Both the position numbers and the translations under genes were made by a program. 64,000 bases of DNA. Origin: Pedobacter sp. Hv1 (GTDB lineage: Bacteria; Bacteroidota; Bacteroidia; Sphingobacteriales; Sphingobacteriaceae). Position 1 is the first letter of the stretch; every line of letters starts with the position of its first letter. The notes beneath the pieces are model-generated. The model had not been told where the DNA came from and ran no database searches. It saw only the letters and a list, made by a program, of their open reading frames with translations. Where the stretch lies: positions 744,001 through 808,000 of the forward strand of contig NZ_LLWP01000004.1 in assembly GCF_001412215.1 (NCBI RefSeq), read 5' to 3'. Below, piece by piece: positions 44,150 to 48,282 of the stretch.

Positions 44150-44785
44150 TTACTTATTAGGCTGTGGTGTGGTTCTTAAATAAGGTTTGATCACCGTGTG
44201 CCCTTTTGGGAAACGCTCAGGAATATCTTCTGTCTTGATGCTGTTCATCACAATCACATCCTCGCCATCTTGCCAATCGGCAGGTGTGGCTACGCTATAC
44301 TGTGCTGTTAATTGCAATGAATCAATCACTCTTAAAATCTCCACAAAATTCCTTCCTGTAGAGGCTGGATAAGTAATCATTAGCTTAACCTTTTTATCAG
44401 GAGAAATCACAAACAATGAACGTACAGTCATCGTTTCCGAAGCGTTTGGATGGATCATATCGTAGGCATCTGCAATTTTCTTATCCTGATCTGCAATAAT
44501 CGGGAACTCTACATTGGTGTTTTGCGTTTCGTTGATATCGCTGATCCAACCTTTGTGCGATTCTGCCGAATCAACACTCAAAGCTAAAACTTTAACATTT
44601 CTTTTGTCAAATTCTGGTTTTAGGGATGCGGTACGTCCCAATTCTGTAGTGCAAACAGGTGTATAATCTGCCGGGTGCGAAAATAATACGCCCCAACTCT
44701 CGCCTAAATAATCGTAAAAATCTATTTCTCCGATAGAAGTTATCGCTTTAAAGTTCGGTGCTGTATCTCCAAGTCTTAAACTCAT
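44150..44785 (-). CDS. Peroxiredoxin (1-Cys, Prx6-like)
   Basis: 211 residues from ATG 44783-44785; an in-frame TTG two codons upstream is less likely. The peroxidatic Cys is in FSHPADYTPVCTTELG (about residue 45). The long C-terminal domain (WQDGEDVIV, IPERFPKGHTVIKPYLRTTP) marks the Prx6/1-Cys group. It reduces peroxides in the cytosol. Confidence 0.94.
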   Translation of the reverse strand: MSLRLGDTAPNFKAITSIGEIDFYDYLGESWGVLFSHPADYTPVCTTELGRTASLKPEFDKRNVKVLALSVDSAESHKGWISDINETQNTNVEFPIIADQDKKIADAYDMIHPNASETMTVRSLFVISPDKKVKLMITYPASTGRNFVEILRVIDSLQLTAQYSVATPADWQDGEDVIVMNSIKTEDIPERFPKGHTVIKPYLRTTPQPNK

Positions 44786-44841
44786 GGTCAATTGTTTTAA
44801 ATCCTAAAATTAATATATGATTTGAAGTTACAAAAACTCCA

Positions 44842-45765
44842 TTAGAATAATCCTTTATCGGGTGTAATAAAATTTATCCGTGACAAATCGCTACCTAAAT
44901 GCTTATTAAACTCTTGGATGGTATAATCTGCAATTAATGGGGTATCGGCCTCATCATGTTGGTGCAAAAAGAAGTATACTTGTTGTAATCCTTCCGCTAA
45001 CCATTGTTTAATCCGCACTACCCATTCATCAACTCTGGCTTTATCAGAATCTAAATATTTGCCACCATTGCCTACAAACCTGATAAAAGCTTCTGGGGTT
45101 GGCAATTCCATATGTACACAATCCCTCCTCCCACTGGCATCTGTAATGGCTGCTCCTTTACCCACTTTTGCCAATAGGCTGAACAATTGTTTTTTATGTT
45201 CACCAATAAACCAGTCTTTGTGCCTCACTTCAATAAATACCTTTAAATCTTTTGGTAATTTTTCGAGATAACTTTCTAAAACATCGATATTATTTGGTCC
45301 AAAATTATCGCTTACCTGCAAAAAACATGGGCCTAAATATTTACCAAAAGCAGAAATAGCCTTGATATATTCGTCTGTTAAATAATCGGTGTCTTTTAAA
45401 CGTTTGATATGGGTAATCGTTCTAGAAAATTTAGGGCAAAACATAAAATCGCCTTTGGTATTGGCGTCTACCATTTCTTTCCACTTTAAAATCTGCTCTT
45501 CTTTGGGTACACTGTAAAATACGGCATTCAACTCAATCGAATTAAAGTGTTTCACATACTCGCCCAAAAAATCTGCTTCTTTGGTCTTTTTTGGATAGAT
45601 GAGTTCTTTCCATTCTTTTCTGCCCCATTTGGCACAACCTACATAATAAGCAGGCTGAGCTACAGGCGCTAAACCTTTTAAAGTCAACATTGTTTGCTCG
45701 CCATCAGCAGGTAAGGTAAAATCAATGTGTTTGATTTCTTCTTCGGCAACTCTACCAAATTCCAT
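44842..45765 (-). CDS. DUF72 family protein
   Basis: 307 residues from ATG 45763-45765 (MEFGRVAEEE); the longer frame starts inside the preceding terminator hairpin and is not used. TIM-barrel-like DUF72 features: YVGCAKWGRKEW, FNSIELNAVFYSVPKEEQILKW, FIEVRHKDWF, VYFFLHQHDEADTPL. No biochemical role is established. Confidence 0.88.
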   Translation of the reverse strand: MEFGRVAEEEIKHIDFTLPADGEQTMLTLKGLAPVAQPAYYVGCAKWGRKEWKELIYPKKTKEADFLGEYVKHFNSIELNAVFYSVPKEEQILKWKEMVDANTKGDFMFCPKFSRTITHIKRLKDTDYLTDEYIKAISAFGKYLGPCFLQVSDNFGPNNIDVLESYLEKLPKDLKVFIEVRHKDWFIGEHKKQLFSLLAKVGKGAAITDASGRRDCVHMELPTPEAFIRFVGNGGKYLDSDKARVDEWVVRIKQWLAEGLQQVYFFLHQHDEADTPLIADYTIQEFNKHLGSDLSRINFITPDKGLF

Positions 45766-45784
45766 ATCAGTTTGTTTATAAATG

Positions 45785-45820
45785 AAAAACCCCAAAACTT
45801 AATTAAAGTTTCAGGGCTTT
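45785..45820 (-). terminator. Intrinsic terminator of the sigma/anti-sigma operon
   Basis: On the minus strand AGCCCTGAAACTT pairs with AAGTTTTGGGGTT (three wobbles), loop TAATT, then TTTTTC. It lies about 22 bases after the protease-fusion stop codon. Confidence 0.7.
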
Positions 45821-45841: not shown

Positions 45842-46921
45842 TTAATTATATACTTTAACCATAAAAACGTAATCCTGTATTTTTTCTACCTGTTTATTAC
45901 GTTTTAAACCTTGTAAAGAGCTTCTTTTACCATAAGCTACTCTTTTACTTAACGAATCTTGAGGAATTGCATTTAAAGCCTCCATGATATATTTAGATTT
46001 TACCGCGAAAGCAGCGCCATCTGTTTTATTTTCTTTGCCATTGATCACTCCTACAATGTTGCCATTGTTATCTAATAATGGTCCACCACTATTACCTGGG
46101 TTTACAGGAATAGCAATCTGATAGGCTAAAGTATCGCCATTGATACCTGTTTTAGAACTCACATAACCATCTCCCAAAACTGCATCATCTTTTGAATAGC
46201 CTAAAGTATATACTGGTTCGCCGATACCTGTGCTTGATCTTTTGATATTATAAGGTAAACTACCTAGGTTACGGAAAGATTGATCAATAACCCTTAAGAT
46301 GGCAATATCATTTGCTGCATCTGTAAAAAAGACTTTAACCTTAAAAGAAACACCTTTGTTATTTTGGATATATAAAGAATCAGCGTCTTTAATTACATGG
46401 AAATTGGTTAAGATATAACCATTGCTTGAAATGGCAAAACCAGTACCTCCATATTTTGCTGGAGTGATATTTGTTTTCTGCGAATTGGCCTTAATGTCTC
46501 TGATTAAACTATTTTGTGATTTTTTAATCTGCGATACATCTCTATTTAAGGCTTCAAAACTGCCTTCTTGTTTATTCTGGTTTAAAACCACTACACTTAC
46601 TAAGATCAAGAACGATGCAGCAACGGCAATAGCAGATTTATAATTATTCCAGAACCTTACAATTCTAGATGAGTGTGGTTTAAGTTGGGCACTTAGTGAA
46701 ACTACATCAATTTGATCATGTGCAGCATCCATTTGTTGTTTCAACAATAAAACATCGGCATATTGTTGCATCGACTCTAAGAAAACCTTGTGGGCAACAA
46801 CTTTATGGTCAACAATTGGATCATTACTCCTCAATTGCTCAAAAGCGGCTTGCTCTGCAGGATTAAGTTTACCATTTAAGTAATCTTCAATAATCGATTC
46901 TAATTGTATGTCGTTTCTCAT
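45842..46921 (-). CDS. Anti-sigma-like membrane protein fused to an S1C serine protease domain
   Basis: 359 residues. Residues 1-85 form a helical cytoplasmic region of the type found in Bacteroidota anti-sigma factors (IEDYLNGKLNPAEQAAFEQL, no zinc ligands). One membrane helix spans about residues 95-114. Outside, after a linker, lies a trypsin-like HtrA/DegP-type fold (about residues 155-315) with the full triad His175 (LTNFHVI), Asp205 (NDIAILRV) and Ser278 (NPGNSGGPLL). No PDZ domain is seen. Its ATG is one base after the sigma-factor stop. It may hold the sigma factor at the membrane and couple release to periplasmic protein damage; this is inference. Confidence 0.85.
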   Translation of the reverse strand: MRNDIQLESIIEDYLNGKLNPAEQAAFEQLRSNDPIVDHKVVAHKVFLESMQQYADVLLLKQQMDAAHDQIDVVSLSAQLKPHSSRIVRFWNNYKSAIAVAASFLILVSVVVLNQNKQEGSFEALNRDVSQIKKSQNSLIRDIKANSQKTNITPAKYGGTGFAISSNGYILTNFHVIKDADSLYIQNNKGVSFKVKVFFTDAANDIAILRVIDQSFRNLGSLPYNIKRSSTGIGEPVYTLGYSKDDAVLGDGYVSSKTGINGDTLAYQIAIPVNPGNSGGPLLDNNGNIVGVINGKENKTDGAAFAVKSKYIMEALNAIPQDSLSKRVAYGKRSSLQGLKRNKQVEKIQDYVFMVKVYN

Positions 46922-46922
46922 T

Positions 46923-47489
46923 TTAGGATTGAAAAAATAACTTCTTTAATCTTTGTAAACACTTATACTTCTGTGTTTTGGCATTATCAGTATTGGTATA
47001 GCCAAATTTTTCACAAATATCCTGCATTGATAAGTTATGGATATAAAAATCCTGGATTATCGTTTTGCAAGGTTCGCCCAAATTCTCTAGGGCCACTTTC
47101 ATCTTGTCAAACTGCATGTCTTTTTGTTCATGCTGTTCTATATCTTCATCTACTGCCAGCACATCTTCAAAATCGGCGATGTTATTTGTTTTTTTGCTCT
47201 GCTGTGCTAATTTTTTCAACCAAATGCGTCGGCTTACCGAGTACAAATAGGTTTTTAATTTACTGCTGAGCTCAAAATTGCCGCTTTTAATTTTGTTATA
47301 TAATACAATGATCGCTTCCTGATACACATCTTTTGCATCGTCTTCATCACCGTTATTATTCAATATAAATTGCAAAACCATCGGAAAATACCCCGTATAC
47401 AACTTATTTAGCGCTTCTTCTGAGTTGTTAAGTATACCTAATACTACTTCTCTATCTGTTGGAACTGAACTGCTTAACTTAATACTCAC
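46923..47489 (-). CDS. ECF-type RNA polymerase sigma factor
   Basis: 188 residues from GTG 47487-47489; a TTG one codon upstream is equally placed, and an in-frame TAA precedes it. Region 2 is EEALNKLYTGYFPMVLQFI ... DDAKDVYQEAIIVLYNKI, region 4 is CKTIIQDFYIHNLSMQDICEKFGYTN ... KCLQRLKKLF. No region 3, as expected for ECF sigma factors. Paired with the downstream anti-sigma/protease gene. Two candidate promoters lie upstream, one resembling an ECF promoter (47644-47672), one a housekeeping box (47593-47600). Confidence 0.92.
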   Translation of the reverse strand: MSIKLSSSVPTDREVVLGILNNSEEALNKLYTGYFPMVLQFILNNNGDEDDAKDVYQEAIIVLYNKIKSGNFELSSKLKTYLYSVSRRIWLKKLAQQSKKTNNIADFEDVLAVDEDIEQHEQKDMQFDKMKVALENLGEPCKTIIQDFYIHNLSMQDICEKFGYTNTDNAKTQKYKCLQRLKKLFFQS

Positions 47490-47492
47490 CAA

Positions 47493-47520
47493 TTAATACA
47501 TTTAAACGTGAATGGTAACC
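47493..47520 (-). promoter_or_regulatory. ECF-like motif overlapping the sigma-factor start (GGTTACC-N15-TATTAA)
   Basis: Same sequence pattern as the three other sites, but a transcript starting here would begin inside the gene. It is listed as a sequence match, perhaps a relic or regulator site. Confidence 0.3.
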
Positions 47521-47592
47521 CAATGATAGGCAAAAAAATTATTTTTTGTTTTAAAAAGACGTTTCCCATGGTTGTTTCTCTTTTCAACAGCA

Positions 47593-47643: not shown

Positions 47644-47672
47644 TTAATACCTGCAAATTGCAAATGGTAACC
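47644..47672 (-). promoter_or_regulatory. Candidate ECF-sigma promoter of the sigma operon (GGTTACC-N16-TATTAA)
   Basis: GGTTACC at 47672-47666 and TATTAA at 47649-47644 on the minus strand. Predicted start of transcription is near 47637, leaving a leader of about 145 bases. Similar to the sites at 47697 and 48010. Confidence 0.5.
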
Positions 47673-47696
47673 TCTAAAATTTAAATATATATTTCA

Positions 47697-47724
47697 GGTC
47701 ACCTTTTTGTTTTTTGTGCATTAA
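47697..47724 (+). promoter_or_regulatory. Candidate ECF-sigma promoter (GGTCACC-N15-CATTAA)
   Basis: One mismatch in each half relative to GGTTACC/TATTAA. Shares GGTYACCTTTTT with the site at 48010. Predicted transcript start near 47731, 40 bases before the lipoprotein ATG. Confidence 0.5.
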
Positions 47725-47771: not shown

Positions 47772-47975
47772 ATGAAAAACTTATTTAGATTTAGCCTTTT
47801 GGCCATCACTTTTATCCTAATTTTATCTTCATGTCAATTCTTTGGTAACAGTCCGAAAGCGGGAGTTGTAGACTCGAATAAAGTAGACTCTTTGAAGCTA
47901 GATACCTTAAAACAAGACACTTCTGTAGCAAATAAAGCAATCGTAAAGCCTGATTCCATAACACAGAAGCACTAA
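47772..47975 (+). CDS. Small lipoprotein
   Basis: 67 residues. Lipoprotein signal with lipobox LSSC (Cys17). The mature part is short, charged and disordered, with repeats of D(S/T)LK(L/Q)DT type. No known domain. It lies between the ECF sigma operon (divergent) and another small lipoprotein, and has its own ECF-like promoter motif 48 bases upstream. Confidence 0.7.
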   Translation: MKNLFRFSLLAITFILILSSCQFFGNSPKAGVVDSNKVDSLKLDTLKQDTSVANKAIVKPDSITQKH

Positions 47976-48009
47976 ACGAAAATAATTTTAACTTTTTTTC
48001 ACATTTGCG

Positions 48010-48037
48010 GGTTACCTTTTTAACTTTGCAGTATTAA
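48010..48037 (+). promoter_or_regulatory. Candidate ECF-sigma promoter (GGTTACC-N15-TATTAA)
   Basis: Exact GGTTACC (48010-48016) and TATTAA (48032-48037), predicted start near 48044, 32 bases before the lipoprotein ATG. The spacer also contains TAACTTTG (48021-48028), a housekeeping -7 match, so either polymerase form could act here. Confidence 0.5.
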
Positions 48038-48075: not shown

Positions 48076-48282
48076 ATGAAAAATTTCTTCAAATTAGGCT
48101 TTGTAGCTTTAGCATTATCTTTATCAGTTGTAGCTTGTAACTCTGAGAAAAAAGCAGACGCAACTGATTCTCCAGCAGTTGATACTAACGCAATGGCTCC
48201 TGACACTACTAAAGCTGATACTACTAAAGCTGATACTACTAAAGCAGCAGCTGATACTACTAAAGCAGCAGCAAAACACTAG
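48076..48282 (+). CDS. Small lipoprotein with DTTKA repeats
   Basis: 68 residues. Lipobox VVAC (Cys21). The C-terminal half is a disordered tandem repeat (DTTKADTTKADTTKAAADTT...), encoded by near-identical 15-base units, and ends in KAAAKH. Shape and start (MKNFF..., lipobox near residue 20) recall the preceding small lipoprotein (MKNLF...). No recognised domain. A terminator follows. Confidence 0.75.
   Translation: MKNFFKLGFVALALSLSVVACNSEKKADATDSPAVDTNAMAPDTTKADTTKADTTKAAADTTKAAAKH
48202..48272 (+). repeat. 15-base tandem repeats inside a lipoprotein gene
   Basis: Units of GAYACTACTAAAGCT type: three in direct succession, then two spaced by GCAGCA. All are multiples of three, so copy-number change keeps the frame. 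Confidence 0.85.

Follow-up and report, generated by a model that had tools for sequence, protein, structure and literature searches.

In the classical pathway, as set out in the part of the source available (PMC12203970), site-1, site-2 and cytoplasmic proteases act on a separate anti-sigma factor. Because anti-sigma proteolysis is usually split among several proteins, cause and effect are hard to separate. The same partial source describes RsgI signalling, where self-cleavage occurs outside the membrane in a periplasmic domain and is followed by RseP and then ClpXP, and RsgI9 of Clostridium thermocellum, an anti-sigma factor with an S1C domain that is protease-like and cellulose-binding (PMC12203970). 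As far as that text goes, the idea of an S1C-joined anti-sigma factor has a precedent, since RsgI9 joins both domains; with RsgI self-cleavage known as well, neither feature is in itself new for an anti-sigma factor. In Bacteroidetes, class I anti-sigma domains (ASDI) are associated with only 6% of ECFs, according to the available part of the paper on these domains (PMC7406223).

We analysed a 64,000-nucleotide stretch of the Pedobacter sp. Hv1 genome (the window), in which an ECF sigma factor gene (46923..47492, minus strand) is directly followed by a gene for a putative anti-sigma/S1C protease fusion (45842..46921, minus strand; ATG start, 359 aa). A single base separates the sigma stop from the fusion start (TAA-A-ATG), as the initial annotation had reported without giving the strand. 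The sigma factor is 189 aa long if it starts at the TTG at 47492 and 188 aa from the GTG at 47489, the end which that annotation had used; either start is possible. The sigma protein matched Sigma70_r2 of Pfam (E 1.5e-8, 34.7 bits against a cut-off of 24), identifying an ECF region 2, and the NCBIfam sigma70-ECF model TIGR02937 across residues 26-184 (83.5 bits against a cut-off of 42.9). The Pfam region 4 model did not match the window sigma protein. Region 4 was recognised by structure, residues 121-189 of a model from the relative L042 superposing on the region 4 chain 3hug_K (Z 7.8, rmsd 2.0, 68 residues aligned). Genes for a DUF72 protein and a peroxiredoxin-like protein lie downstream on the same strand (44150-45795, minus strand).

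The fusion begins with a helical, anti-sigma-like cytoplasmic head (residues 1-80; 46682..46921, minus strand), modelled with helices at 3-15, 21-33 and 35-70. A single membrane helix follows (residues 96-114; 46580..46636, minus strand). The top hydrophobic segment of the chain starts at residue 96 (KD 2.39 across 19 residues) and is the sole clear one; the model has a helix at 86-112, with low confidence. Lysine and arginine are commoner before than after the membrane helix in 286 of the 324 distinct sigma-fusion pairs described below. Beyond it lie a helical linker (residues 115-150; 46472..46579, minus strand; model helix 122-146), which may be the region that is cut, an S1C protease domain of the HtrA/DegS type (residues 151-323; 45953..46471, minus strand) and a C-terminal tail (residues 324-359; 45845..45952, minus strand; model helix 341-351, strand 352-358) at the place where other HtrA proteins have a PDZ. 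When seven segments were compared, conservation was lowest in the linker (residues 116-150, 0.45) and highest in the last 14 residues of the chain (346-359, the KIQDYVFMVKVYN end, 0.83).

The protease assignment is supported by family and fold. Trypsin_2 of Pfam matched residues 159-292 at E 1.9e-25. In the AlphaFold model of the fusion (mean pLDDT 73, pTM 0.55, 22 rows), residues 154-321 superposed on MucD with Z 20.4 and rmsd 2.4 over 159 aligned residues; Z was 18.6-20.4 to MucD, HtrA1, DegS and others, with HtrA1, DegP and PDZ-less DegS tied with MucD. The tail past residue 323 falls outside the MucD superposition. The catalytic residues are His175 (codon 46397..46399), Asp205 (46307..46309) and Ser278 in GNSGGP (46088..46090), all on the minus strand, and the chain combines an HtrA-type fold with the His-Asp-Ser triad, as S1C proteases do. 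The triad, the one membrane helix and an outer S1C protease lacking a PDZ had all been proposed in the initial annotation and are confirmed here; no PDZ model was among the eight Pfam matches, scanned up to E = 1. Across distinct pairs His and Asp are each kept in 323/324 and Ser in 324/324, leaving the triad intact in 323/324. A degenerate protease is ruled out by this conservation. The sole exception, in a Pedobacter MAG (L086:1759-2547), is a fusion missing residues ~141-240 in frame, hence the loss of His and Asp; the gap may be a real deletion or an assembly fault. Neither the Pfam scan, in which the RsgI/SEAL autocleavage domain may or may not be represented, nor the model showed a further domain separating the membrane helix from the protease.

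Like RsgI9, the fusion is a predicted membrane anti-sigma-like protein with an outer S1C peptidase domain. The available part of the RsgI9 source describes an orphan without an assigned SigI that is an anti-SigI rather than an anti-ECF protein and self-cleaves in a separate periplasmic domain, whereas the only outer domain found in the fusion is the protease, with its triad intact, and an ECF gene is adjacent. The components also match those of RpoE/RseA/DegS/RseP, namely an ECF sigma factor, a membrane anti-sigma factor, an S1C site-1 protease and an RseP-type site-2 protease (DegS domains as given in the accessible part of PMC8103513). Unlike in that system, anti-sigma factor and protease would be one chain, with no PDZ found. 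Nor is the fusion DegS proper, as the two DegS equivalog models gave 63.1 bits (cut-off 422.95) and 55.3 bits (cut-off 408). It shares the S1C domain with HtrA, MarP and related S1C proteases but differs from them in its head, sigma partner and C-terminal tail, and reaches no curated cut-off of the listed HtrA-type models.

The association of the fusion with its sigma gene was then assessed in 383 loci, of which 365 passed a full-length filter. One of these, L199, had passed through a 0.6-bit match and was removed by hand, being a headless protease whose start resembles a signal sequence; this left 364 fusions. In three loci counted as fusions (L129, L157 and L160) the profile match begins only at position 44-47, leaving part of the head unseen. 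An ECF gene of the same group lies directly upstream on the same strand of the fusion and its anti-sigma-like head in 363/364 cases, with gaps from -158 to 220 bases (longest-ORF starts). The only fusion without a sigma neighbour, L156, is on a contig that ends 7 bases upstream. Collection by similarity to the fusion favours these coupling figures and those for the triad, without forcing them, and the 363 loci amount to only 324 distinct pairs because some genomes entered more than once. By contrast, none of 19 headless relatives (18 partial matches and L199) had a sigma neighbour. That search used a model built on the sigma factors of the same group (E up to 1e-3), so an ECF of a very different kind next to one of the headless proteins could have escaped it. 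The difference between 363/364 and 0/19 rules out an ordinary membrane protease lying beside a sigma gene by chance. Thus, the domain order that the initial annotation had proposed to look for beside ECF genes is conserved and tied to one ECF gene, and the opposing outcome it had named, a plain protease in genomes without a neighbouring sigma factor, did not materialise, the only sigma-less fusion being at a contig end. The adjacent ECF gene presumably encodes the cognate sigma factor of the head.

Whether the head is an anti-sigma domain was examined by family scans, covariation and modelling. The window's own head matched no anti-sigma family. In a Pfam scan of 102 diverse heads (E up to 0.1) the most frequent match was zf-HC2 (17/102, best 1.7e-4), which we take to be a model of anti-sigma zinc fingers; Hemerythrin was next with 8, and RskA_N matched 1/102. 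In the corresponding NCBIfam scan (102 heads, E up to 0.1) 'anti-sigma factor' matched 15/102 (best 1.3e-4) and 'putative anti-sigmaE' 7/102, against 3 for the next unrelated family. Most matches of heads to anti-sigma families are weak. The window head contains no cysteine and hence no zinc motif; judged by the family scans and the weak covariation described below, the head resembles a zinc-less anti-sigma domain. A profile of the head found no solved anti-sigma domain: PPAR receptors make up almost all of the best 60 of its 141 matches to solved structures (best E 0.017), which we attribute to chance.

Covariation between sigma factor and fusion was computed from the 324 pairs (effective number 213), with the protease and tail of the same chains as control. 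The head makes up 29% of the columns, yet by mean-field DCA it contains 7 of the 10 strongest sigma-to-fusion pairs and 8 of the 20 strongest. Pseudolikelihood placed 4 of the top 5 (P 0.028) and 6 of the top 10 pairs (P 0.042) there, an enrichment that fades in longer lists (top 20, P 0.1; top 50, P 0.39); these P values count pairs as independent. Sigma region 2 and head residues 55-72 account for 7 of the top 20 sigma-head pairs against 1.9 expected, with segment borders that were set after viewing the model and the pairs. In class I anti-sigma domains an interface between helix 4 and sigma region 2 has been published, according to the part of the paper available (PMC7406223). The fusion is like these domains in having a small helical N-terminal head that is fused to other domains beside an ECF gene, and in the weakly recovered helix 4-region 2 interface. 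It is unlike them in that the window head is without cysteine and the published contact of helix 1 with region 4 was not recovered among the covarying sigma-head pairs.

For the relative L042, sigma factor and head were joined into one chain by reading through the stop, and the model of this chain has pLDDT 79.9 and pTM 0.74 (nine rows), a value that is favourable without proving an interface. Foldseek gave no match for this model at E <=0.001, and its best rows were the sigma chains of AlgU-MucA, SigE-RseA and ECF initiation complexes. Among rows that aligned both sigma domains, ECF/anti-sigma complexes (6dxo, 1or7, 6in7, 8z6g) fitted at 7.8-12.0 A, compared with 15.6-17.1 A for anti-sigma complexes of other sigma classes and 15.8-26.1 A for transcription complexes and other models. 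This tighter fit to ECF/anti-sigma complexes is favourable, not decisive. In the sigma-head list nearly only the sigma part was aligned, and the head is helical in both models; since the listed structural matches lie in the protease or in the sigma factor, the missing anti-sigma chains among them say nothing. Support for the anti-sigma-type head of the initial annotation comes from family scans, weak covariation and gene coupling, even though the head in the window itself matched no anti-sigma family; the structural fit that the annotation had asked for is favourable in the relative without proof of an interface. Overall, the interpretation in that annotation is partly supported, with cleavage of its own chain by the protease and damage as the signal standing as proposals. 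We consider it very probable that the head holds the sigma factor at the membrane.

The upstream region of the sigma gene carries a putative promoter motif, GGGTTAC-N15-GTATTAA, present in exact form at 47493..47521 (minus strand). A second copy with a spacer of 16 and one mismatch lies further upstream (47644..47673, minus strand). The GTG sigma start is only 3 bases past the GTATTAA box (47487-47493). This position right behind the box suggests a leaderless message or a start codon further in. Among the regions upstream of sigma genes, GGGTTAC-N15/16-GTATTAA was exact in 251/322, had one mismatch in 64 and two in 7, giving 315/322 with at most one. Mononucleotide-shuffled regions reached three mismatches or better in 30/322 and at most one in none. 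At 267 spacer-15 sites, both boxes are 92-100% conserved per position and the spacer much less, save for TT at bases 3-4. The motif was derived from the same upstream regions in which it was then counted; the counts in the window's own genome, in the class and before divergent genes are more independent checks.

The whole genome (4.9 Mb) has two exact copies of the 15-spacer motif, the one before the sigma gene and one pointing away from it (48009..48037, plus strand), before a divergent gene for a 68-aa small lipoprotein (48076..48282, plus strand), a predicted sigma target. At the level of sequence, the sigma factor and the predicted membrane protein are encoded back to back behind a candidate promoter motif that also precedes divergent small lipoprotein genes. 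A second small lipoprotein gene of 67 aa (47772..47975, plus strand) has before it a weak copy with 3 mismatches, near chance level (47696..47724, plus strand). With spacer 15, the genome contains 45 sites with at most two mismatches against 66 for a reversed control and 3 against 2 with at most one; with spacer 16 and at most one mismatch there are 7 sites against 5, the second sigma promoter among the 7. The site counts against the reversed controls (45 vs 66; 7 vs 5) therefore show no excess of the motif outside the locus. A wide regulon via this motif (spacers 15/16) is unsupported in this genome by the control counts.

Among 247 genomes sampled from the class, the exact motif with spacer 15 was found in 19/38 genomes with the fusion, being absent from the other 19/38, compared with 2/209 without it (Fisher P 5e-16), and gave 40 hits against 14 for a reversed control pattern. 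The 38 sites in fusion-bearing genomes lie before the sigma gene (14), a small lipoprotein (15), a ~290-aa lipoprotein (3), a 96-aa protein (2) or other or unread sequence (4). The ~290-aa lipoprotein follows the motif in L390, L391 and L408 and the 96-aa protein in L393 and L409; the latter looks like a CBM48 domain.

Of the 188 distinct pairs for which 900 or more upstream bases were available, 144 have one or more divergent motif sites (at most one mismatch) with an ORF behind them and the remaining 44 have none; relatives carry up to four such sites per locus. A lipobox-like start was seen in 206/208 site-ORF pairs. The small lipoproteins, 179 distinct ones in all, are 36-97 residues long (median 71) and rich in T, A, K and D, some with heptad-like repeats; just 7 have an aromatic residue in the mature part. 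Lysine is among the final three residues in 151/179, against 31% expected from composition. No Pfam cut-off was reached by the two window lipoproteins or two from relatives that were scanned. Such lysine ends recall Braun's lipoprotein, and the small lipoproteins could be envelope spacers. They could equally be a ligand or competing substrate of the protease, in which case the circuit would be a homeostat.

We judge it slightly more probable than not that this locus is a self-contained ECF module in which the head holds the sigma factor, site-1 cleavage falls to the protease, an RseP-type protease acts next and the sigma factor drives its own operon and the lipoproteins. The head would tether the sigma factor at the membrane until an envelope signal activates the protease, in this case without a PDZ. 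The protease would then cleave at site 1, in the linker of the same chain or of one beside it (probably its own kind), after which an RseP-type protease would cut the membrane helix and cytoplasmic proteases would clear the head. Free sigma factor would then transcribe its own operon and the lipoproteins, which would close the loop. We infer the cleavage by the protease; for the later step, the genome encodes one Peptidase_M50 as RseP-type site-2 protease (204.7 bits), and such proteases were found in 14/14 control genomes. The intact triad in 323/324 pairs would be unneeded by a pure binding domain, and no other outer domain was found in the chain. Both points count against a possible though doubtful alternative, that the fusion is an anti-sigma factor whose S1C domain serves as a periplasmic sensor or as a protease for other substrates, for example the small lipoproteins, with another protease making the site-1 cut. 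That alternative draws on RsgI9, whose S1C domain, in the part of the source available, is called cellulose-binding and protease-like while another, separate domain carries out self-cleavage (PMC12203970), and on the presence of the protease-plus-tail module in headless proteins too.

Release could also do without proteolysis, if binding of a substrate or ligand altered the assembly of the protease and the head freed the sigma factor reversibly. HtrA-type domains shift conformation upon binding and the helical linker could relay such a change, but the triad is intact and an RseP-type protease is present, common as these are in the control genomes, so we regard reversible release as improbable. 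Least credible, and in our view very improbable, is a head that is not anti-sigma on a membrane protease merely co-expressed by the sigma factor. The weak head matches and lack of a solved-structure match would fit such a protein; a sigma neighbour at 363/364 loci with a head and 0/19 without, the anti-sigma models topping the NCBIfam head scan, the head-sigma covariation and the pTM of 0.74 all speak against it. Returning to the self-contained module, an extended form of it would make one polypeptide the sensor, site-1 protease and anti-sigma factor, with a near-private regulon of its own operon and tiny, low-complexity, mostly lysine-ended lipoproteins that also act as the signal, for instance as competing substrates occupying the protease. 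We hold this extension only tentatively and think it rather unlikely; if true, the circuit would amount to a closed homeostat that acts on a lipoprotein by proteolysis.

Literature searches covering titles and the starts of abstracts found no paper describing a protease/anti-sigma fusion of this kind, the one paper returned for the fusion dealing with a Treponema virulence factor, and no description of a closed lipoprotein-homeostat ECF circuit. The initial annotation had known of no characterised example, which holds in part: RsgI9 is a documented anti-sigma factor bearing an S1C domain, but in the part of that source available the domain is protease-like and cellulose-binding and self-cleavage lies elsewhere (PMC12203970). 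As far as literature listings show (titles and abstract starts, a scope outside which the 2021 ECF classification falls), what is new is an ECF system with an apparently active S1C domain as the anti-sigma factor's sole outer domain, conserved across families and with a local lipoprotein regulon. With sensor, protease and anti-sigma factor potentially in one chain, a recognisable promoter and a very small predicted regulon, the whole idea is testable by one serine mutant and one reporter. Function also comes within reach for small lipoproteins that are below Pfam cut-offs. The locus is a conserved candidate for envelope signalling where few class I anti-sigma factors are known (6% of Bacteroidetes ECFs in the accessible part of PMC7406223).

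The distribution of the fusion was determined in samples of increasing breadth. The rest of the window's own genome has only one other match, a weak one (E 4.3e-6) in a 516-residue frame. Of 300 genomes in a sample of the order, which the table places entirely in the window's family, 298 carry the fusion, with best matches at E <=1e-115; the two without are G587 and G007. A match covering most or all of the chain was present in 65/396 genomes of a class sample, and in two other families of the class matches (E up to 1e-60) occur in at least 184/195 and in 80/87 genomes. In a phylum sample 23/247 genomes match at 1e-30, 16 of them over the whole chain. The named relatives are Pedobacter, Sphingobacterium, Niabella, Taibaiella and Edaphocola, along with others given as Sphingobacteriaceae and Chitinophagaceae. 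Headless proteins with the same protease, mostly with the conserved tail and without a neighbouring sigma gene, were seen in other Bacteroidota (L191-L195, L199-L203), and several of these start like secreted or lipid-anchored proteins.
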